DNA from: a virus
Length of the DNA: 40,603 nucleotides
Strand: one strand, 5' to 3'
IMG/VR virus record: IMGVR_UViG_3300047997_000109
Location: 1 to 40,603 of that record
Shown: positions 185-24,975 of the stretch, one piece after another
How positions within the stretch are numbered: position 1 is the stretch's first letter
How the letters are laid out: every line of letters begins with the position of its first letter
The notes under the pieces: model-generated
Told to the model about the DNA's origin: nothing
The model's database searches: none
The model's input: only the letters and a program-made list of their open reading frames with translations
Program-made: the position numbers and the translations under genes

Positions 185-499
185 ATGCTTTCTACCGCCT
201 ATCGCCTTCGACTAGAAGGTATTTGTAAAAAGATCGCAAACAAGGAGGAAGTACAATTAGACGATATGATCTGGGCAGAAAAGCTTGCTAAATCTCACAC
301 ACTTGCTAGGGATTGGTTAAAGCAAGCACGACGCCAAGCAGCACAAGACATTGAAGAAGGTAGTACCGACGATTTTCTGAATAGGATGGGTTTAGGAGAC
401 CCCGATCCATCCAATCATAAAACGGGGTTCAACAGTGCTGATGACATTAAAGATTGGTTTCAACGAGACAAACCTGATGATTGGAGGCAGCGAGATTGA
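185..499 (+). CDS. Small conserved-type cyanophage protein, function unknown
   Basis: This 104-residue protein starts at ATG 185, five bases after the preceding stop. It is predicted soluble and helical in the first half (residues 1-55, rich in Lys/Arg/Glu, with a segment around LAKSHTLARDWLKQARRQAA) and acidic with a Trp near the C-terminus (DDWRQRD). It looks like the small proteins that lie just before tail genes in T4-like cyanophages, but I cannot name it. Its stop overlaps the proposed TTG start of the next gene, suggesting translational coupling. Confidence 0.7.
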   Translation: MLSTAYRLRLEGICKKIANKEEVQLDDMIWAEKLAKSHTLARDWLKQARRQAAQDIEEGSTDDFLNRMGLGDPDPSNHKTGFNSADDIKDWFQRDKPDDWRQRD

Positions 500-795
500 G
501 TAGTAAGATGATGTTCTTAGTTGCTAATGGCGACAACAAATGCATCACTCACGATGGATACATTCAACTCGGTAGTTTCTGCCATAGTGTAGATAAACAT
601 CTTGAGCTGTGTCCCGAACAAGAATGGCAAGTTACCTATTGGATGCCTGATCCATTCTATATGAGATATCCGAGACCAAACTATCAGCATACAATGAAGG
701 CGAACGAAGGTTCTCCTAAAACTGATAATGCCACTGATAGTAGACCAAGAGACTTTCCAGATCAAGCTACAAACAGATTAGAAAGAACATTATGA
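496..795 (+). CDS. Small unknown protein, probable TTG start
   Basis: The frame is open from 481, but the best start is TTG at 496: it overlaps the previous stop (497-499) and has GGAGG at 483-487, eight bases upstream, an ideal Shine-Dalgarno spacing. The first ATG (508) would leave that site 20 bases away. The product is then 99 residues. It has a Cys/His-containing N-terminal half (MFLVANGDNKCITHDGY) and a polar, probably disordered C-terminal tail after about residue 65. No known domain is recognised. It ends by overlapping the start of a small membrane protein gene. Confidence 0.65.
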   Translation: MSSKMMFLVANGDNKCITHDGYIQLGSFCHSVDKHLELCPEQEWQVTYWMPDPFYMRYPRPNYQHTMKANEGSPKTDNATDSRPRDFPDQATNRLERTL

Positions 796-13280: not shown

Positions 13281-13928
13281 ATGGACATTACACCTATTCG
13301 TCCTCTAGAGCTGATGCTCGATGAGAACTTGACTAAATCAAACTTTGATGATTTTATTGGTGTTTGGGATAGTTTTATGCCCAAATCCGAGTGTCAGAAA
13401 TATATTGATTGGTTTGATGATCTAGAATCTCACGCTAGTGTTATCGGATCCTCAATGGATAACGGTGATATTGCTGACGGTAGATTTCAGTTTCCTCAAG
13501 GGAAGCAGGGTAGATATGATAAACAAACCCTGATTACTCATCAAAATCTTGAGTTGCAGCAATGCACTAATCAATATTTGGCATCAACTGTTGAACATTA
13601 CATTGGTGAGTTTCCACAGCTTGCAGGCGAATCACTGATTAGTAGTTGCATCAAGTTGCAAAAAACAGAGGAAGGTGGTGGATATCACGTCTGGCATTAT
13701 GAGGCTATGGGTCTTAACCATTCTTCTCGGTGTTTAGTGTGGGCGATATATTTGAATGATGATTATGAAGCTGGTGAGACTGAGTTTTTGATGCAAAAAC
13801 GTCGGGTTAAACCTCCTGCAGGAACTGTTGTAGTTTGGCCAGCTGGTTTTACGCATCCCCACAGAGGAAATACAGTATTAAAAGGCAATAAATATATCTT
13901 GACTGGTTGGTACTATCACAACGCATAA
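13281..13928 (+). CDS. 2OG-Fe(II) oxygenase, HxE variant
   Basis: A 215-residue protein of the prolyl-4-hydroxylase-like 2OG-Fe(II) oxygenase superfamily. The double-stranded beta-helix core runs from about residue 120 to the end. The proximal iron motif appears as GGGYHVWHYE, with His139 and Glu141 in the HxD/E position. The distal His lies in AGFTHPHRGN (His194), and Lys204 in GNKYILTGW is placed to bind 2-oxoglutarate. The family usually uses HxD, so Glu141 is an uncommon but known type of substitution. It is a paralogue of the minus-strand gene at 38087-38776, which keeps HYD. It lies three bases after the collar/Ig gene and next to the fibre chaperone, so fibre residues are one possible substrate (inference). 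Confidence 0.85.
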   Translation: MDITPIRPLELMLDENLTKSNFDDFIGVWDSFMPKSECQKYIDWFDDLESHASVIGSSMDNGDIADGRFQFPQGKQGRYDKQTLITHQNLELQQCTNQYLASTVEHYIGEFPQLAGESLISSCIKLQKTEEGGGYHVWHYEAMGLNHSSRCLVWAIYLNDDYEAGETEFLMQKRRVKPPAGTVVVWPAGFTHPHRGNTVLKGNKYILTGWYYHNA

Positions 13929-14582: not shown

Positions 14583-15248
14583 ATGTTTTATCGTTATGAA
14601 CTTTTGAATTCCGTCCAAGTCGGGCATATATTAAATCTTTGTGATGCTGGTACCTGGGAGGATGGTAAAGAATCTGGCAGTAGCGATAAACGAGTAAAGA
14701 ATAATTTCCAAATAGACAAACAGTCTGCATATGCGTGCTGGAGTATATTGGAAGGTTCTATGGATAATTGCGATGTTGTACGCGACTCAATGCTGAGCTG
14801 TGCTTATACGTTACCACATTTTTGTAAGTATGGTGTAGGATGCCATTATGATTGGCATACCGATCACGCACATATGGGTTCTAATCAAGATTTACGATCT
14901 GATGTTAGTACCACAGTTTTTTTAAATGAAGACTATGAAGGTGGGGAATTGGAGATTAAACTTGGCACTGAACTGATTAGTGTTAAGTTACCAGCAGGGT
15001 GGGCATTTAGTTACCCTACTGGAATACCACATAGAGTTAAACCTGTAACTGCTGGTGAAAGGAAAGTAGCAGTGCTTTGGGCTCAGTCTAGACTCAAAGA
15101 TCCTATGGATCGTCTGGCATTTGCAAGAATGCAAGAATGTATTACTAATACAGAATACAGTCCAGATTCTCCTGAATGGGAAATGGTTAGAATCATAGAC
15201 GAACAGAAAATGCATTTACTACGAACTAAAGGCGATCTGAGATCATAA
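14583..15248 (+). CDS. PiuC/YbiX-like PKHD-type 2OG-Fe(II) hydroxylase
   Basis: A 221-residue protein with the PKHD-type hydroxylase layout: an N-terminal segment RVKNNFQIDK, a central HxD pair in YDWHTDHAHMG (His92, Asp94), STTVFLNEDYEGGELEI, a distal His in YPTGIPHRVKPV (His150) and Arg160 in TAGERKVAVLWAQS. This is the standard set for Fe(II) and 2-oxoglutarate binding, so an active enzyme is expected. Homologues in bacteria are linked to iron-limited growth and are frequent in cyanophages (family knowledge); the substrate is unknown. It is distinct from the HxE/HYD pair of oxygenases elsewhere in the window. The next gene begins after a late promoter motif. Confidence 0.88.
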   Translation: MFYRYELLNSVQVGHILNLCDAGTWEDGKESGSSDKRVKNNFQIDKQSAYACWSILEGSMDNCDVVRDSMLSCAYTLPHFCKYGVGCHYDWHTDHAHMGSNQDLRSDVSTTVFLNEDYEGGELEIKLGTELISVKLPAGWAFSYPTGIPHRVKPVTAGERKVAVLWAQSRLKDPMDRLAFARMQECITNTEYSPDSPEWEMVRIIDEQKMHLLRTKGDLRS

Positions 15249-15285: not shown

Positions 15286-18200
15286 ATGAGCAATAGAATT
15301 ATTGCGAGAATTTCTAAGGAAAATCAAGCCAGCGCTGTCATCGAAAGAGCGAAACAGCGTTTTACATCACTTCAGAACACCGAAGATCTGAGTCGTCTTA
15401 AGACTTTATTCTTAGATTTCGACGTAAAAGACGATAACTTTGTACAAATATTAAAGGGAGATGAATTCCCTGAGGTTATTGGAGCTGTTTGGGATAGAGA
15501 AATTTACCTAACGGGGGTAGAAACTGATGATTCACAGACATATGGATTAGAAGAAGTTGATGTGCAAGGTGGTTCTTTTGATAGAAGAGCAATTGCAGAG
15601 TCTTTATCAACTGACAACGAAGACATTGATGCGCTAGCACGTCAAATTAAACCTAGCGATTACGGCAACGTTATTCCTTATAACGTTGGTTCTGGTACTC
15701 AGTATTCAATCGCTGCTACTGTTGTTAATACTACTAGTGGTCCTAAGTTATACATCAACGGATCACAAGCTCCTGACCTGACATATGTTTTTCCTGGACA
15801 CGAATTAGTTATTGATGTTTCTGATAACTCTAACTTTGGTTATACTTTAGCTTTCTCTGAGACTCCTGATGGTACTCATAATGGCGGTACTAACTATGTG
15901 GTTGGTGTCTCCAGAACTGCTACTCCTGGTACCACTGGTGCTGAAGTAACACTAACTGTTTCGCAGACAACTCCGCAGCAGCTTTATCTTTATGCTAACG
16001 AAACCTCAAGAGTTGGTTTGCGTGGCGGTGGATTCTTAAATGCTACCGATCATTGTAAAGTCGCAATCTTTAGTAAGTGGTATCTTGCACGTATCACTCA
16101 GCAACAAAATTCACTGAATTATGGTCTGTACTCTTACACCGAGCACGGTGAGGGTGTTGACTGTTATGTTATTGATACTGGTATTCGTGGTGCATCACGT
16201 CCTACTAACGTTACTGGTGCTAACTTGCACCCTGAACTATTCCACCCTGATTATGCTGATGACTACAATACTGCTATTAATCAGGCTGAATATCGTGTCT
16301 ATGAAGTTCCTGGATACAATTCAGGATACACTGTAAATGGTGAGGCAAACTCTAACGAAGATGACAATGGTCACGGTAGTCAATGTGCCATTCTAATTGG
16401 TGGTCTGGAGCACGGTGTTGCACGTAAGACTAGATTCTATGCACTGAAATGTCAGAACAGCGCTGGTAGTGGTCTATTGTCCACATATGTGTTTGCTCTA
16501 CTAGCAATCATCAACCATAACGATCCTGCTCATCCTAACTATAAAGGAAGTACTAGACCAGCTATTATCAATGCTTCTCTGGGTGTTGGTACTATTCCGT
16601 CTGAAGTCTATCGTTACGTTCCTCAGAACGAACCTGGATTCGATAGTGGTTCATATGAAGCAGACACTGCTATGGACGACTATGAAAATCTTTGTGTAGA
16701 AAACGGAATCGTATTCGTTCGCTCTGCTGGTAACGGTTACGGTTATAACTTTAAGTACGGTGGATTCCAAGCTAAGTTTAATCCTGGTCCTCGTACTGCT
16801 GGTCCTCAGGACTACAGATATAATATGGAGGGTATTAGCGACAAGATTTCTGTCGGTGCTACGGCATATAATAATACATTCTCAGGATTCTCAAACTATG
16901 GTACTGGTGTTACCACCAGTGGTCCTGGAGAATCAATTTACTGCCCTCAGTATTATTGGAACACCAACAGTTCTTACAGCTCTGTTGGTTCCATTTATTA
17001 TGCTTATATTCGTGGTACTTCATTCTCTGGTCCTCTGACTGCTGGCGTTATCGCGCAGTATTTGGGCAAGAAAGGATATGAGAACAGAGCAACATATGAA
17101 GGCAAATCTGTTCCTAAACTTGCTAAAGAGTGGATTCGTAGAGAAATTGATTGGGATTACGAGAGAACGCAATCCGCTGTTGGTGAAGAATATGGTGGTG
17201 GTAGTGTAAACGTTTATCCTACTAATGACATCGATGAGATTACTCTCGATGGCATCAATACTTACATTGCTGTTGGTGCTGGCACCAATGAAATGTCTAT
17301 CACATTGGGTAGTGAATTCTCTAGATTCGATGCTACTGTTGGTGATAAGATGCAGTTCCGTATCCCTGAGGCAGTTCCTTCAGTGGATATCATCACTGAC
17401 GTTTGGGTTAGTAGTGATGGATCACCGACAGCAGCATATTATCAAGCTGGCGGATTGTTGAATCTTGTCACTGATAACGATCCTGCTCCTGGTCTTGCTG
17501 GTGTATTCCCTTCTGGTGGTACTACTGGTTATGTTTCTACCTTGTCTATCCAGAATCAAGGTTCTGGTTATACTATTGTCCCATCTGTTGCATTTACTGG
17601 TGGTGGCGGTACTGGTGCAACTGCAACCGCAGACATCACACTGACTGGTGGTAATATTACAAGCATCAACGTTGATCAAAGTGGTGCTGGATATACCGAA
17701 GCTCCTACTGTTGATATCGCTGGTGATGGTACTGGCGCAACTGCAACAGCTGTTATCTCTCTAACTGGTGGTGGTATTGATTCTGTTACGGTTACTAATG
17801 GTGGTTCTGGTTATAATCCTCTAAACCTTCCTGCAGTTACATTTACTGGTGGTGGTGGATCTGGTGCTACTGCTGTAGCTGTCATTACTGATGGTATCGT
17901 TAGTGCGGTTAATATTTCTAATCCTGGATCAGGATATTCTGAGGCACCTACTGTTGGCATTGCAATCTCTGCTGCAGCTAATCAAGGTAACACTATCCAC
18001 GCTCCTGATAGTTCTTTCGTGTCTGGCGGTGGTTCTACTACCTCTTCGTCACTGAATCAGACTACAAGATTGCTAACGGTTATTGCAGATAACCTGCCTC
18101 AACCTGCATTGTATGGAGCTTTCCCAAATAGCAATAACTCCAATACTATTACAGGTCAGTCTTACAACCATACCTGGGTTTATCGTGGTGGTAGAAATAT

Positions 18201-21200
18201 TTCCGATGAATCTCCTACATCTACTTTAGCTCAACCTTCTATTGGTATGGCGCTGAATGGTGTACAACTGCGTCATCTTTCGCACGGTTTGAATGTTGAT
18301 TTGCCTGATGGTACTGGTTGTCCTGATGGATATACCTTCAACAAAATTTTCAACTCTACTGCATTTGGCGCTGATAATGGTAGCGGTGTTGTAGATGGTT
18401 CTGGTATGTATCACTACATTACAGGTAATTTCTTAGTTAATACTTGGAAAGGTTCTTCTACAACCTATACTGTAACCATTAATGATCCTGGTGGTGGTAA
18501 CAAGTACTACCTTAACAATGGTCTGACACCTAATATCATTCTCACTGAAGGTAATACTTATTACTTTGATCAGAGTGATGTAAGTAACGCTGGTTATCCT
18601 TTCAGAATCTCTGAAACTCAGGATGGTGTGCATACTCAAGGCGGTGTTGCATACGAGATTGGATATCGTTATCAAGGTACACCTGGTGACGGTGTATCTG
18701 GTACAGGTTTATATCTTCAAGTTCAACCTGACACCCCTAATCTCTACTACTACTGCTCATTGTATTCTGGATACGGCAATGCTGCATCTGTGACTACAAC
18801 TACAAACACTGCAGCTCTTCCTTCGCATACAACTGCAGATATTATTAATGCAACTCATCACTCTCCTGTGATTGGTTATGCATACGATGGTTATCCAATC
18901 TACGGTCCTATTGGTTATTCAAGTCCTGGTTCACCCACCACACTTTCAAGAATGCAAAGTTCTTGGGGTGTTAAGGGAGAGCGTGATGGGACACAATATA
19001 GTGGATCTACGTACACCTGGGGTGTTACTGCTGATGATAGCTTAGACTTTGATTTTACTGGAGAAGCAATTGGTAGTGATATTGCAATCGCTGCTAACAT
19101 TGGCGACAACCTTGTGTTCAACGTCAATGCTTCTTATACTACTGGTGGTGGCGGTGGTAGTACACCTGCAACTTATAACTTAGTTGTTACTGCAAGTGGT
19201 TTTAGCGATTACACTGTCTCTGGTTCTGATAGAACTGGCAACGTTAGTGGATCTGATCCTAGTCTGACATTCTATGAAGGTGATACTATTAACTTCACGG
19301 TGTCTGCATCTGGTCACCCATTCTATCTAAAAACTGCAGCTGGTACTGGTACTGGCAATCAAATCTCTGGTGTTAGTAATCAAGGTACTCAGTCTGGTAC
19401 TGTCGCTTGGACTCCAGGTATTGGTTCTGCTGGTACTTACTATTATCAGTGTGAGTATCACGGCGGTATGGTCGGTACTATCACTATCCAGTCTGCTGGT
19501 GGTGGCGGTGGAACTACAATTACTCATCCTTTCTGGATTCAGAAAGTTCCTGCACCTTATAACCCTGCACAAGTTGTTGCTGGTGTTGTTAACAATGGTA
19601 GCTACAATGCTACGTTGTTGTGGAGTACTACAACTACAGCCCCTGGAACTTATTATTACGTCTGCGAAAATCATCAGGCAATGACAGGTACGATTACTCT
19701 GACTGAACCAGTTGGTTATGCTCCGTCTACTACGGCATATCCGATGGGTTCATTTGTGGAAGACTATCAGTACCTTGGTGGTGGCAACTTAGATCGTTGC
19801 AATGGTCGCTACTGTGTCACTCCTGAATTCCCTGGCGGCACATATGCATACTTCACTACATTCGATGCTTCTGCTAATCCTGCATTCCCATATATTCTAG
19901 GAGATAGGTACTACGGCGAACCAGTCACTGAAGCTGACACTGCACCGCAAAACCCAATCTTTGAGCAACCTGCATCTTCTGTGTGTACGATTGGTACACA
20001 AATTGGTGTAGTTGATACTATTAATGTAACTGATCAAGGTGTTGGTTATACTTACGCTAACATCACATTTAGTGGTGGCGGCGGTGTTGGTACAGTAGCA
20101 TCTCCTAATATCTCAGTGCTAGATGGTTATGTTTCTGGTCTTAACTTGATTGAACAGGGTTCTGGATACACAACTTCTCCTACTGTTACTATTAATCCTC
20201 CAAACGTTAGTGGTGGTGTGCAAGCAACATCTGTTGCACAGATTGCTATTACTGCAGGTAACCCAAATAGTATTGATAAGCAATCCTTTAACCAGAACTT
20301 TAACTGGAGAGGTGGTACTAACTATGCATCTGCCAGCTTGGTAGAGATGAAGCCTTTACGCAGTGTAAATGCTTTCGGTATTACTACTACTGGTACATTC
20401 CTGTACCACTATTCCTTCGAGAATGGTCCTACTCCTGGTTGGACATACAATACAGTTACTAATGGTAACCTCGTGGGTGAAGACTCTTATGGTGGTTATC
20501 CAAGTGCTGCTAACGTTTATGGTTATAACTCAAGCAAACTGTTGAGTGCATACGGCACCGTTGCTGTTTCTGGTTCTAACTATCTGTCTCAATCTTACTA
20601 CGATCTAGGATATCGTACTGTTAACTATATTATTACCACTGATACTAAGTCAGCATCAGCTCCTTACTACAATCAAGGTAGTCTTAATAACTATGTACTC
20701 CGTGGTGATACGTACACCGTTAACGTTGAAGCTCCACAACTGGACTTCACTAGAGGTAACACTTACATCTTTGATCTAAGTGATTCTTCTAATGATAATC
20801 ACCCGATGTACTTCTCCACCACTGATGATGGTATTCATAATGGTGGTGTTCGTTATAGCGATGGTGTTACTTACAGATTGGATGGTGCTGCAGTTGATGC
20901 TGTTACTTTCAGCAATAGCTTCAATAGTGCTACTACTCGTACGGTTACAATCGTTGTTCCTCAAAACTCTCCTGCATTGCTGTATTATGTCTGTGTGAAT
21001 CATCCACGTATGGGTAATCAATCTGTCGTGAACAGCAATGTTCAGGGTGATTACAAGCGTCATACTAACGGTCACTCCAAGATTCTTGGTATGACATTTG
21101 ACGGTTATCCAATCTATGGTCCTTACGGTTATTCTGATCGTGATGACAATAGCAGTGCGGTTATTCGTATGAAGCCTGCATATCTGCCGAAACTAGAGAA

Positions 21201-24200
21201 TAGAGTTCCTGATATGTTTGGATCACGTCCAGACAAAACAACCTATCCTATTGGATCTTTTAACGAAGACTTTGAATTCCAAGGCGGTAGCGAAGAAGAT
21301 AATATTACTGACATTACTTACAATGTTCAAGCTGCAGCTGCTACTGTTAGTGGTAGTGGTGGTCGCTATTATATCTCTGGTGGAACATTAAGTGGTTCTG
21401 CTGAGAAACCATCATTTAACTTTAAGAAAGGTAGAAAGTATACCTTTAACCTTTCTGATAGTTCAAATACCAGCCATATGATGCTGCTATCAACTAATGG
21501 TGATGCTCAAGCACAAGGTTGGCACGTTGCAGGATCGTCTCCTGGTGATGTTAACGCTGTTTATACAATCGGTGTTGTGTACAAGTTGGAAGATGTTGTA
21601 GTAACATATTCTGAATATGTCGCAGGATTTGACACTGCTACTTTGAGAAGCATTGAGTATACTCCTGCATCAAATGCTCCCCACGTGTTGTACTACTTCT
21701 GCTACAATCACTCTAATATGGGTGAGCGTATTATCATCGGTGACGTTGATAGCAGAAATGGTCGCTACTGTGTGACACCTGACTATCCGAATGGAACCTA
21801 TGCTTACTTCATCACTGAAGATCAGAATGGAGCTCCTGCATATCCTTACATAATGGGTGACTACTTCTACTCAGATCCTGTCTATCCTGGTGGTAATGCT
21901 GTAGAAGGATCCTCCTATGTCTATGACATTGGTGGTGTGCAATTCAACGTGCTTCAGAGATACTGGCAAACCATTACTGATGTTGATACTGCTAACAGCA
22001 GAATTACAATTGAACCTGATGCTGCTCAGTTTACTGGTGTTCAGTCTGAAACTGGTGGCAATCTGATCAAGATTGCTAATTTGAACGGTACTCATCAACG
22101 TGCTGATGGTATCCAACGCTGGATGGATGAAAATCCTGTTGGCAACAAACTATATTTCCAGACTGAAGCTCAAGAAGATGCTGGAAATGGTGAAGGTGAT
22201 GAGATCGTTTACCTTCCTACAGATAAGGGTGTTGATGGCGGTTATGTTCGCGGTCTGTTCTCTCCTTATATCAACCTGTTGACCACGTGGTACACACCTG
22301 CAGGTGCTTTGGGTACATTTAACATCGGTGATGTTATCAACCTTCAGCTTGGTGTTTCTTTCTTAAGAACATATGCTGCAGAGACAATTCTCGATAGAGA
22401 TTATTCACTGACTGGTGATTCTATTGTTGGTACTGGTCTTGCATTCGATACCGAAACTGGTGTCTTGAGTGGTACGTTGATCAACAACACAACCCTTGAC
22501 TTGACACTGACTGTAGAAGAAAATATTTCTGGTCAGACTCAAGAGTATACTATTCAGCTTACTAACACTACTGTTACAGTACAGAATGTTGCGCTGAAGA
22601 CTGGTGGTGCTTCGAGAACAATTGATTACTTGACTGTCACTAAGAAAGACGGACAACCTAATGATGATCTTATCTGGGAAGAGAATAAGTGGTATTCACG
22701 TCCTCTGAGCTATAAGTCATTCAGTGTTCTTGCATATCAAACTGGTTATGAAAATACTCAATTTGATTATCTTCCTCAGTGGCAAATTTGGGGAGATAAA
22801 GGTGCAGGTTTCATATGGCATAACATTAACGAGTATTCTACTGGTCCTGTTGCTGCTGGTCAATCTTGTCAGATTGAAGAAGGCGATTGGTTCGAGAATA
22901 ATTTGGCAGCGAGAGATCAATTCTACTCTTACAATGAGACTTTTGAAGATGTCACAGGACACGAAATTGCAATCTCTTTCCTCATTGTTAACAAATGGTG
23001 GAATTATGATCAAGATTTCTTCCGCCTCAAGATGCGTTATCGCTTGACATTCAATCTAGTTGCTACTGGTAATGACTATGCTACTGTCATTAACGAGTCT
23101 GGTTCTACTGTGTTTGAAGTACCCAAAGGTGCTACGTATCGCTTTGATATTAGCGATGCTTCCTGGGTTGGTAAGAACCTAGAACTGAGAGAATCTGCTA
23201 CTGGTAGTGCATACATTGGCACTAACGTTAGACGTTACGGTACTCCTGGCACACCAGGTGCTTGGGTCGATCTTATCGTTGATGAAGCTCAAGCTGGTTC
23301 TGTCTTCTACTTCGGTCAGGCAGGTGGTACTACATTTGCTACACAGCACCTTGATTTCACCAGCGTATTCAATGCATTGCTTTCCAATACGTTACAGCTT
23401 GGTCTTACTAATATCCCTGCAGTTCCTGCACAACCTCTGCTGACAATGGAATCTGGCGCTACATCAATCACTTCGAGTTCTTACTCTGTTGTGACTGAGT
23501 ATGGTGCTTTAACACACTTCCCTAACACGTTACCGTATCAGTCTAGTAACAAATCCCCTAAGGATGGTCGTTACCCAGTGAATCTTGTTTGTACTGACCA
23601 AAACATCGAGTTCAACTGGTACAGAAAGCTTTATAGTTATGATACTTCTACTGGCGTTAAGTCCTATAACTGGGACACTGTTGCTAACACCAGTTCTACT
23701 TATGTTCCTCTCAAGTCACCACATTATAGATCCAGGAGAGATTACGGTAACAATACTACTGCATATCATTCTTCTTGTGTTCTCGATGGTGCTAGCATCT
23801 ACGAAGCGAACTACGTTTCATTCGATGAAGACTTCCCACTTCGTGTGAACTATGGTGGTCCTCAGATTGAAATTCCTGTTCAATCTTCTTCACAACTACA
23901 GCCTCCGTTGGCAAACGATGGTACTGTGCTTCGTGTTACTGACCTTCCTTGTAAGGGCATCCCAAGTGGTGTAAATGACCCGTATGCTTATCAAGTTGTG
24001 GTTGGTAATGGCGATGCATTATCTTCTGTGTCGAACGAAATCAGTGCTATTGCTAACCCACCTGAAATGGGTATGTGGTGGTATGAGTATGCTAATGGTT
24101 GGACTGGTACCGTTTCTAATGGTTATCTGCGTCACGATCAAGGCTTCGTTGATACTACTCTGACTTGTGGCGATTACTTTGGTAACGTCTTAGTTCGCTC

Positions 24201-24975
24201 TTTCGTTATTGACGTGGGTCCTGCACCTTTGAGTGCACTGCCTTACATTGACATCAACACCTTGCAAGTACAAGATTACTACAAAGGTGCACAGAATCTG
24301 ACTGTGAGTAACAACCAGTCACAAGATGTGACGGTCTCTTACACAATCGATGCTGGTCAGTTTACCTGGAGATTGCGTCTGATCAATGAGTTCCCTTATA
24401 TGGAAAACGTTGATAGTGGTACTAGAACTGTTTACACTACAAATAATCCTGCCCACGCTAACGCTCCTACGATTGTTAATACTGGCGACTTCTCTACTTA
24501 TAGTGGTCAATTGGCCGCGGCAACTGGAGTACTTCGCGAGTGTCCTTTCCGTGGTGACACTAACGTCAACCTTCCTGTTGACTTCTCTGTTAAGAATGAC
24601 ATTCAACCTGCTATCTTCCCTGCACGTGGTACTCAAAAGGTCTACACATTGTGGGTGGAGCTGGTTGAGTCTCCATTCGATTTGGTTGACTTGATTAACC
24701 TTGTGGCAGTTGCTGATCCTTGCCAGGACCACACTTATGATTTTGCATACACCTCTAACGGTGCTTGCATTACACCATCTAATGATTACTTCTGTAACTT
24801 CATTAAACCCCTCCGCGACCGTGGTCACGGTGAACAACCGATCATCGGTATGGAAGGTGTTGCACAAATTAAGGTAACTGATGGAATTGCACCTAGAGCA
24901 TTGGACTTCCAGATCCCTGCTCCGTGGCCAGTTCTGTTCTCTTACCTAGGCGATTGTAACCCCACTTGCGCATAA
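15286..24975 (+). CDS. Giant subtilase / cupredoxin / YHYH virion protein
   Basis: The product is 3229 residues. Residues 1-80 resemble a subtilase I9-type propeptide (RIIARISKEN ... EFPEVIGAVWDREIYL). A complete S8 protease follows: Asp297 (YVIDTGIRG), His363 (DNGHGSQCA), oxyanion Asn483 (RSAGNG) and Ser579 (RGTSFSGPLTAGV). Four 40-41-residue GSGY/GAGY repeats follow (residues 759-884). Then come two split YHYH-type modules (MYHYI 1041 with YDGYPIYGP 1200; LYHYS 1706 with FDGYPIYGP 1938), each ending in NGRYCVTP (1506, 2158). Cupredoxin-like units lie before, within and after these; four have full copper ligands, for example His1344, Cys1389, His1392, Met1395, spaced Cys-x2-His-x2-Met as in amicyanin. 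The C-terminal ~700 residues are unrecognised. It is presumably a late virion protein; self-cleavage and copper binding are predictions. Confidence 0.85.
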   Translation: MSNRIIARISKENQASAVIERAKQRFTSLQNTEDLSRLKTLFLDFDVKDDNFVQILKGDEFPEVIGAVWDREIYLTGVETDDSQTYGLEEVDVQGGSFDRRAIAESLSTDNEDIDALARQIKPSDYGNVIPYNVGSGTQYSIAATVVNTTSGPKLYINGSQAPDLTYVFPGHELVIDVSDNSNFGYTLAFSETPDGTHNGGTNYVVGVSRTATPGTTGAEVTLTVSQTTPQQLYLYANETSRVGLRGGGFLNATDHCKVAIFSKWYLARITQQQNSLNYGLYSYTEHGEGVDCYVIDTGIRGASRPTNVTGANLHPELFHPDYADDYNTAINQAEYRVYEVPGYNSGYTVNGEANSNEDDNGHGSQCAILIGGLEHGVARKTRFYALKCQNSAGSGLLSTYVFALLAIINHNDPAHPNYKGSTRPAIINASLGVGTIPSEVYRYVPQNEPGFDSGSYEADTAMDDYENLCVENGIVFVRSAGNGYGYNFKYGGFQAKFNPGPRTAGPQDYRYNMEGISDKISVGATAYNNTFSGFSNYGTGVTTSGPGESIYCPQYYWNTNSSYSSVGSIYYAYIRGTSFSGPLTAGVIAQYLGKKGYENRATYEGKSVPKLAKEWIRREIDWDYERTQSAVGEEYGGGSVNVYPTNDIDEITLDGINTYIAVGAGTNEMSITLGSEFSRFDATVGDKMQFRIPEAVPSVDIITDVWVSSDGSPTAAYYQAGGLLNLVTDNDPAPGLAGVFPSGGTTGYVSTLSIQNQGSGYTIVPSVAFTGGGGTGATATADITLTGGNITSINVDQSGAGYTEAPTVDIAGDGTGATATAVISLTGGGIDSVTVTNGGSGYNPLNLPAVTFTGGGGSGATAVAVITDGIVSAVNISNPGSGYSEAPTVGIAISAAANQGNTIHAPDSSFVSGGGSTTSSSLNQTTRLLTVIADNLPQPALYGAFPNSNNSNTITGQSYNHTWVYRGGRNISDESPTSTLAQPSIGMALNGVQLRHLSHGLNVDLPDGTGCPDGYTFNKIFNSTAFGADNGSGVVDGSGMYHYITGNFLVNTWKGSSTTYTVTINDPGGGNKYYLNNGLTPNIILTEGNTYYFDQSDVSNAGYPFRISETQDGVHTQGGVAYEIGYRYQGTPGDGVSGTGLYLQVQPDTPNLYYYCSLYSGYGNAASVTTTTNTAALPSHTTADIINATHHSPVIGYAYDGYPIYGPIGYSSPGSPTTLSRMQSSWGVKGERDGTQYSGSTYTWGVTADDSLDFDFTGEAIGSDIAIAANIGDNLVFNVNASYTTGGGGGSTPATYNLVVTASGFSDYTVSGSDRTGNVSGSDPSLTFYEGDTINFTVSASGHPFYLKTAAGTGTGNQISGVSNQGTQSGTVAWTPGIGSAGTYYYQCEYHGGMVGTITIQSAGGGGGTTITHPFWIQKVPAPYNPAQVVAGVVNNGSYNATLLWSTTTTAPGTYYYVCENHQAMTGTITLTEPVGYAPSTTAYPMGSFVEDYQYLGGGNLDRCNGRYCVTPEFPGGTYAYFTTFDASANPAFPYILGDRYYGEPVTEADTAPQNPIFEQPASSVCTIGTQIGVVDTINVTDQGVGYTYANITFSGGGGVGTVASPNISVLDGYVSGLNLIEQGSGYTTSPTVTINPPNVSGGVQATSVAQIAITAGNPNSIDKQSFNQNFNWRGGTNYASASLVEMKPLRSVNAFGITTTGTFLYHYSFENGPTPGWTYNTVTNGNLVGEDSYGGYPSAANVYGYNSSKLLSAYGTVAVSGSNYLSQSYYDLGYRTVNYIITTDTKSASAPYYNQGSLNNYVLRGDTYTVNVEAPQLDFTRGNTYIFDLSDSSNDNHPMYFSTTDDGIHNGGVRYSDGVTYRLDGAAVDAVTFSNSFNSATTRTVTIVVPQNSPALLYYVCVNHPRMGNQSVVNSNVQGDYKRHTNGHSKILGMTFDGYPIYGPYGYSDRDDNSSAVIRMKPAYLPKLENRVPDMFGSRPDKTTYPIGSFNEDFEFQGGSEEDNITDITYNVQAAAATVSGSGGRYYISGGTLSGSAEKPSFNFKKGRKYTFNLSDSSNTSHMMLLSTNGDAQAQGWHVAGSSPGDVNAVYTIGVVYKLEDVVVTYSEYVAGFDTATLRSIEYTPASNAPHVLYYFCYNHSNMGERIIIGDVDSRNGRYCVTPDYPNGTYAYFITEDQNGAPAYPYIMGDYFYSDPVYPGGNAVEGSSYVYDIGGVQFNVLQRYWQTITDVDTANSRITIEPDAAQFTGVQSETGGNLIKIANLNGTHQRADGIQRWMDENPVGNKLYFQTEAQEDAGNGEGDEIVYLPTDKGVDGGYVRGLFSPYINLLTTWYTPAGALGTFNIGDVINLQLGVSFLRTYAAETILDRDYSLTGDSIVGTGLAFDTETGVLSGTLINNTTLDLTLTVEENISGQTQEYTIQLTNTTVTVQNVALKTGGASRTIDYLTVTKKDGQPNDDLIWEENKWYSRPLSYKSFSVLAYQTGYENTQFDYLPQWQIWGDKGAGFIWHNINEYSTGPVAAGQSCQIEEGDWFENNLAARDQFYSYNETFEDVTGHEIAISFLIVNKWWNYDQDFFRLKMRYRLTFNLVATGNDYATVINESGSTVFEVPKGATYRFDISDASWVGKNLELRESATGSAYIGTNVRRYGTPGTPGAWVDLIVDEAQAGSVFYFGQAGGTTFATQHLDFTSVFNALLSNTLQLGLTNIPAVPAQPLLTMESGATSITSSSYSVVTEYGALTHFPNTLPYQSSNKSPKDGRYPVNLVCTDQNIEFNWYRKLYSYDTSTGVKSYNWDTVANTSSTYVPLKSPHYRSRRDYGNNTTAYHSSCVLDGASIYEANYVSFDEDFPLRVNYGGPQIEIPVQSSSQLQPPLANDGTVLRVTDLPCKGIPSGVNDPYAYQVVVGNGDALSSVSNEISAIANPPEMGMWWYEYANGWTGTVSNGYLRHDQGFVDTTLTCGDYFGNVLVRSFVIDVGPAPLSALPYIDINTLQVQDYYKGAQNLTVSNNQSQDVTVSYTIDAGQFTWRLRLINEFPYMENVDSGTRTVYTTNNPAHANAPTIVNTGDFSTYSGQLAAATGVLRECPFRGDTNVNLPVDFSVKNDIQPAIFPARGTQKVYTLWVELVESPFDLVDLINLVAVADPCQDHTYDFAYTSNGACITPSNDYFCNFIKPLRDRGHGEQPIIGMEGVAQIKVTDGIAPRALDFQIPAPWPVLFSYLGDCNPTCA
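17560..17980 (+). repeat. Coding tandem repeats, GSGY/GGGGxGATA units of about 41 codons
   Basis: Within the giant protein, units opening with GSGY, GAGY, GSGY and GSGY start at residues 759, 800, 840 and 881, each followed by a GGGGTGATATA- or GDGTGATATA-like stretch. Two further units (GVGY 1585, GSGY 1625) occur later with the same 40-residue step. Such repeats form beta-solenoid or fibre-like stalks in phage proteins and probably space the protease from the copper modules. Confidence 0.75.

Follow-up and report, generated by a model that had tools for sequence, protein, structure and literature searches.

The 40,603-nucleotide stretch of viral DNA considered here (positions 1 to 40,603 of IMG/VR record IMGVR_UViG_3300047997_000109, hereafter the window) carries an open reading frame (ORF) for a giant tail/baseplate-type protein of 3229 amino acids at 15286..24975 on the plus strand, as are all features of the protein described below. 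Residue r starts at nucleotide 15286 + 3(r-1). Two modules of the YHYH type are found within the protein, each of which is interrupted by cupredoxin units. Block 1 opens with piece a of the YHYH core (residues 928-1057, nucleotides 18067..18456), which contains a YHYI sequence at 1042-1045 and matches positions 14-77 of the PF14240 profile. It is followed by the inserted cupredoxin C1 (1058-1171, 18457..18798), whose copper ligands are lost, and by piece b with its DGYPIYGP motif (1172-1240, 18799..19005; profile 84-133, E 1.1e-9). Next come the N-terminal half of an outer cupredoxin (1241-1286, 19006..19143), a GGGGG linker (1287-1291, 19144..19158), the complete inner cupredoxin C2 (1292-1404, 19159..19497) with candidate ligands His 1344, Cys 1389, His 1392, and Met 1395, a second GGGGG linker (1405-1409, 19498..19512), and the C-terminal half of the outer cupredoxin (1410-1476, 19513..19713) with His 1414, Cys 1460, His 1463, and Met 1466. 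Piece c, which harbors YPMGSFVEDY and NGRYCVTP, completes the block (1478-1548, 19717..19929; profile 137-185, E 3e-12). Block 2 is built from piece a (1640-1768, 20203..20589) with YGYN at 1745-1748, the inserted cupredoxin D1 (1769-1915, 20590..21030), piece b with DGYPIYGP and YPIGSFNEDFEF (1916-2001, 21031..21288; profile 90-155, E 2.2e-12), the inserted cupredoxin D2 (2002-2150, 21289..21735) with His 2064, Cys 2139, His 2142, and Met 2145, and piece c with NGRYCVTP (2151-2212, 21736..21921; profile 154-185, E 3.1e-8).

The original prediction, made from the DNA alone, held that two YHYH modules are homologous, that cupredoxins inserted into each have split it, and that the YHYH motif is degenerate in both, and in this it was borne out. 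The landmarks lie where it had placed them (YHY at 1042 and 1707, GYPIYG at 1202 and 1940, NGRYC at 1506 and 2158), and blastp aligns residues 895-1570 with 1640-2230 at E 3e-41. A self-comparison of the whole protein by blastp gave no off-diagonal rows, and the homology was measured block against block instead. When the YHYH pieces alone are compared with their counterparts, the scores are 57, 90, and 178, each of which beats all 500 shuffles; the only other pair to rise above its shuffles is piece c of block 1 with piece b of block 2 (57 versus a shuffle maximum of 47). The whole protein scores 139.5 bits against PF14240, for which the gathering score is 25, and the domain is interrupted twice in each block. 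With the inserts cut out, block 1 matches profile positions 14-185 in one continuous stretch at 111.2 bits, as compared to 88.8 bits in three stretches when uncut. Likewise, block 2 matches positions 16-185 at 89.7 bits, as compared to 73.3 bits in two stretches. In addition, uninterrupted YHYH proteins of cyanophages (from loci L002, L003, L032, and others), hereafter referred to as solo proteins, can be aligned with each of the two cores from one end to the other. The nesting of cupredoxins inside the YHYH domains, as opposed to a sequential arrangement, is thus real at the level of primary sequence, because removal of the inserts restores a single continuous profile match in each block.

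The second loop of block 1, which had been described as holding one or two more cupredoxin units, contains one cupredoxin nested inside another. A hidden Markov model (HMM) of the inner unit was built from 19 rows, namely the window and 18 relatives, with identical sequences dropped here and throughout. Positions 5-51 of this HMM match the sequence preceding the inner unit, and positions 52-111 match that following it, with a full inner unit in between. This split pattern is observed in all 19 rows, with one N-terminal half ending at position 50 rather than 51. The C-terminal half alone scores 53.8 bits and the N-terminal half 11.8, and the two joined score 68.0; none of 200 shuffles of the N-terminal half reached 68 bits when joined. 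The inner unit is positioned in the loop of the outer cupredoxin just before the first copper-ligand histidine. Block 1 has no runs of four or more glycines other than the pair bracketing the inner unit, and this holds in 19 of 19 distinct sequences, with GGGGG in every row at the first linker and four or five glycines at the second. Pfam matches to the cupredoxins (PF00127 and kin) are modest, with 23.3 bits for the whole protein over a cut-off of 21.2 and 28.6 bits for block 1. C2 gives Copper-bind/plastocyanin matches, and the C2 pieces alone reach 17-18 bits, below the cut-off. Pfam scans of the protein, blocks, and pieces gave no cupredoxin match for C1, D1, or D2, which were assigned as cupredoxins by their similarity to the other units.

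Structure predictions are in keeping with these assignments for the C2 pair and D1. Over residues 1240-1474 of the block 1 model, the predicted local distance difference test score (pLDDT) is mostly about 70-93, falling to 52-57 at the linkers. The model of the inner C2 unit matches copper nitrite reductase with Z 10.7 (98 aligned residues, 2.8 Å), and that of D1 gives a fold match with Z 8.2 (109 aligned residues, 3.3 Å). A laccase, 3cg8_B, aligns over 102 residues spread across 335..573 of the block 1 model (Z 9.5, root-mean-square deviation (rmsd) 2.8). This range corresponds to the outer unit and is what would be expected if the outer domain folds around the inner one. A Foldseek search with the whole block 1 model returned cupredoxin proteins, with rmsd values near 20 or more among the matches listed, and hence only the ranges of the VIA matches were considered; the first VIA match for block 2 was set aside (Z 9.3, rmsd 19.6). 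On the basis of sequence, and in part of the model, the architecture consists of three nesting levels, a cupredoxin within a cupredoxin within a YHYH domain. Partial-full-partial patterns of cupredoxin HMM matches (about [58-114], [6-113], [30-80]) are also seen in phage proteins from loci L033 and L037-L040, and these might represent further nested or tandem cases.

The cupredoxins had been predicted to enter the same two loops in both blocks. This holds for the first insert, which in each block lies in the loop between FLxNxW and GHSK (residue 146 or later of the solo proteins for block 1, 155 for block 2). The second inserts occupy different loops: that of block 1 precedes the YPxGSFxEDY strand (solo residues about 211-220; profile 133/137), and that of block 2 comes after YPIGSFNEDFEF (solo residue 237; profile 155/154). 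The motif assignments also require revision. YHYI at 1042 is indeed the YHYH motif of block 1, with its final histidine replaced. The YHY at 1707, however, aligns with the NGVxLFN segment, and the equivalent in block 2 is not YHYS but YGYN, in which both histidines are lost.

The fate of the YHYH metal site was followed over 19 rows for block 1 and 17 for block 2, window included, as were the cupredoxin ligands. The histidine of the GGH motif and the second histidine of YHYH are lost in 19 of 19 and 17 of 17 rows, respectively. The first YHYH histidine survives in three block 1 rows and in none of block 2, where glycine and asparagine replace the two histidines in 17/17 rows. In the solo rows the GGH and YHYH histidines are invariant (7/7 and 5/5). 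A passage in PMC7824862 predicts for YHYH domains a zinc site of three histidines and one aspartate and a role as tail-associated hydrolases. That the blocks still function as metal-dependent hydrolases, as this family prediction would have it, finds some favor in the retention of Asp 1030, His 1192, and Asp 1201 in block 1 and of Asp 1733, His 1926, His 1930, and Asp 1939 in block 2, the Asp and His of the HS and DGYP segments included. Given the histidine losses, however, we regard it as highly improbable. Neither block displays the intact motif and conserved histidines of PF14240, and both are predicted to be inactive if the missing histidines belong to the proposed zinc site. Among the ORFs of 76 loci, the YHYH motif is present in 0 of 65 interrupted and 36 of 37 uninterrupted domains, in a count that includes near-duplicates and few lineages; four further YHYH motifs had no downstream partner.

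The copper ligands display a different pattern. A complete His, Cys, His, Met set is found in C2 in 19/19 rows, in D2 in 17/17, in the outer C2 unit in 14/19, in D1 in 10/17, and in C1 in none of 19; the cupredoxin fold is therefore also used without a copper site. Among distinct cupredoxins elsewhere, the set is complete in 12/12 of the gp9 type, 14/15 in the 1186-type baseplate gene, 4/4 in proteins of 430-600 amino acids, and 15/22 in larger proteins. C2 and the cupredoxin of Synechococcus phage S-RS29 gp9 are 41% identical, yet the ligands are kept. Such retention across diverged sequences suggests that a copper-type site is under selection. It might be proposed that redox-active or host-sensing copper centers are needed for adsorption, and are not merely on display. 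The ligands kept in C2, D2, and most distant tail cupredoxins speak for such a role. Their loss in C1 and variability in the outer C2 unit and D1 speak against it, as does the fact that no partner redox protein was identified, and we consider it doubtful. It is somewhat less doubtful, albeit still tentative, that cyanophage tails carry working type-1 copper centers, piled up here by repeated insertion of domain into domain while the YHYH metal site was given up. If so, metal chemistry or metal-stabilized binding at the phage tip would have moved from the host domain (YHYH) to its guests (the cupredoxins). At their C-termini, the gp9 proteins of cyanophages (from L002, L003, L004, and further gp9 loci) bear a cupredoxin in which no copper ligand is missing.

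How the two blocks arose was addressed through the closest kin of their parts. D2 is most similar to the insert of a baseplate gene encoding 1154-1187 amino acids, with scores of 331 (S-SSM2), 361 (L032), and 231 (ACG-2014d) versus 208 with D1, and it is 46-49% identical to the S-SSM2 and L032 inserts. D1 scores alike with D2 (208) and with the insert of that gene (210-215), and C1 scores 139 with D1 and 136 with a degenerate unit near the N-terminus of the protein. The inner C2 unit scores 172 with its own outer unit and 167 with the C-terminal cupredoxin of S-RS29 gp9. Trees of the YHYH cores separate block 2 plus the 1154-1187-residue protein from block 1 plus the solo YHYH proteins with support of 98/91 in both builds, accompanied by long-branch warnings. 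The first tree contained eight rows of the 1154-1187-residue group, from which identical rows and rows that a pattern had missed were absent; the second contained 11, with L004, L058, identical rows, and three g4064 rows left out. Both are unrooted, in that the search for a cellular outgroup, covering 96 candidate stretches, yielded L081 alone, which is insufficient for rooting. The original prediction had invoked duplication of an already interrupted block of roughly 650-740 residues, with subsequent divergence of the copies. The end-to-end alignment of the blocks, the shared first insertion loop, and an approximately unbiased (AU) test that did not reject them as sisters (p 0.143 and 0.195) are consistent with this scheme. 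It is countered by the second inserts, which differ in loop, cupredoxin subtype, and closest kin, and by the unconstrained trees, in which block 2 groups with a separate gene, with long-branch warnings in both builds. We judge it unlikely in this form. The trees and the AU test together neither demonstrate nor exclude an internal duplication, and we lean toward the modules having been derived from different baseplate paralogues as opposed to a recent duplication of one block. An in-order fusion of a solo YHYH gene, gp9, and the 1186-amino acid gene would fit the order of the kin; it is not claimed here.

The reading that we favor, and hold to be reasonably probable, is that of a giant tail protein in which YHYH domains with dismantled metal sites serve as scaffolds for the display of inserted cupredoxins, with three levels of nesting and with an origin, as noted, leaning toward paralogues. 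The protein would be a structural component of the cyanophage tail or baseplate region. Its cupredoxins would be carried on surface loops, with a single unit on the first loop of block 1 and the nested pair on the second, and with single units on the first and third loops of block 2. The YHYH domains are probably fixed in the tail, with the cupredoxins displayed outward, where they may contact the host surface or provide structural bracing. Judging from their ligands, inner C2 and D2 have probably retained the binding of copper or a comparable ion, and the other units may be filler folds. A putative tail-anchored protein can thus be envisioned in which a protease-like domain and repeats accompany YHYH scaffolds that hold cupredoxins on their loops.

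Several points weigh against this reading. The outer cupredoxin is spanned by one of the 50 VIA matches listed, and a range in these is defined by the first and last aligned residues only. The four half-cupredoxins could be paired in swapped fashion. Of the 118 columns of the inner unit, 55 are invariant, and therefore ligand invariance in 19 close relatives is by itself weak. The uninterrupted YHYH domains of L077-L079 (L080 repeats L077) have no YHYH motif, and loss of the motif therefore needs no insertion. Finally, structure prediction of the blocks, which is confident for the cupredoxin region of block 1, is poor for the YHYH cores. The mean pLDDT values of the two models are 53.5 and 50.7, and those of the cores lie mostly below 50, such that nesting within the YHYH fold rests on sequence and not on structure. 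A search of the PDB with solo YHYH sequences gave no match at E up to 10, and therefore no YHYH structure was at hand for comparison. The poor core models and the missing metal residues would also fit a string of sequential cupredoxins and YHYH fragments, the latter having decayed to the point of no longer making up a domain. This arrangement is improbable: each core retains its three pieces, with many invariant columns, in its relatives (18 for block 1 and 16 for block 2), and insert removal restores a full-length profile match.

Simpler nesting of cupredoxins in YHYH domains already occurs in known cyanophages. The Kyanoviridae gene for 1154-1187 amino acids, located between gp9 and gp8 and assigned to phrog_708 "baseplate wedge subunit" (CPLG_00204 in S-SSM2, Syn7803US116_74 in ACG-2014d), encodes, like the giant, a YHYH core interrupted by a cupredoxin, which is 40-49% identical to D2. 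It differs in being a smaller, separate protein with one YHYH block and in having one insert, at the second site of block 1 rather than that of block 2; the PHROG matches that it gave with E up to 1e-10 did not include an S8 family. The 1396-residue "neck protein" of S-RS29 (OQ504981) likewise bears cupredoxins in two loops of its YHYH core; unlike in the giant, no nested cupredoxin was seen, and the ligands of its second unit are lost (YAFAYSNTGY). The solo proteins (phrog_2576 type, 283-596 amino acids) have the same core, but it is uninterrupted, with 65-66 residues between DGYPIYG and NGRY, and the YHYH motif is canonical in the 36 of 37 noted above. Single, unsplit C2-like cupredoxins end the gp9 proteins (phrog_677) and the S8 proteases of S-CAM4 and S-H9-1, the latter also sharing the S8 domain type of the giant; in contrast to those of the giant, these cupredoxins are terminal and not inserted. 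A passage of PMC7029224 lists YHYH as one of the domains that putative tail or baseplate proteins contain. A literature search by titles and the beginnings of abstracts, with subscription journals and bioRxiv preprints mostly outside its coverage, returned no description of YHYH-cupredoxin nesting.

Nesting of domains at two levels is already known, and the giant tail protein is an unusually deep case of domains built inside domains. A fold inserted into a copy of itself inside a third domain, with conserved polyglycine linkers on both sides, provides a clean natural example of insertion tolerance. In marine cyanophages, the cupredoxins with intact ligands that occur in gp9, in baseplate proteins, and in proteases point to a broad and testable trait.

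The remainder of the protein contains two additional domains of note. The degenerate cupredoxin-like unit mentioned above (residues 128-240, 15667..16005) scores 136 with C1 and 116 with D1 and has Tyr 186 in place of a histidine at its first ligand site. It is followed by a subtilisin-like (S8) domain (264-630, 16075..17175), which matches aqualysin in the PDB at 2.4e-10 and phrog_3677 and constitutes a protease-like domain within a tail protein. The residues Asp 297, His 363, Asn 482, and Ser 579 are kept in nine of nine aligned relatives; a Pfam scan at E up to 1 gave no S8 match. Repeats resembling GxGYTxxPTVxIxGGG precede both YHYH blocks (17533-17970 and about 20005-20230) and are common to several families of cyanophage virion proteins (phrog_701, phrog_460, phrog_22827).

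The 3229-residue ORF matches phrog_27200 (7e-174) and phrog_708 (2e-153), the latter in parts only, with a best stretch of 490-757 of 1383. As judged by this partial match and by a position among fibre and collar genes and not between gp9 and gp8, it is not a T4-like baseplate wedge subunit of the phrog_708 type. The upstream side contains short tail fibre/collar genes together with a gene for a tail-fibre assembly protein and two for 2OG-Fe(II) oxygenases; tail-fibre-like genes follow downstream. Comparison of the region with named phages by tblastn gave 471 records, nearly all from Synechococcus or Prochlorococcus phages and none more than 60% identical; megablast of the ORF against phages gave no match. 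Close relatives are found on eight long contigs, of which six carry genes of the psbA/psbD type and all eight carry YHYH matches. The giant gene most likely belongs to a cyanophage tail region in light of the phage kin, the psbA/psbD-type genes on the contigs of relatives, and the neighboring tail genes. In the relatives, a second giant ORF of up to 4064 amino acids (L077-L080) holds an uninterrupted YHYH domain, also lacking the YHYH motif. The two oxygenase genes, at 13281-13928 and 14583-15248, lie immediately upstream of the giant gene, one on each side of the gene for the tail-fibre assembly protein.

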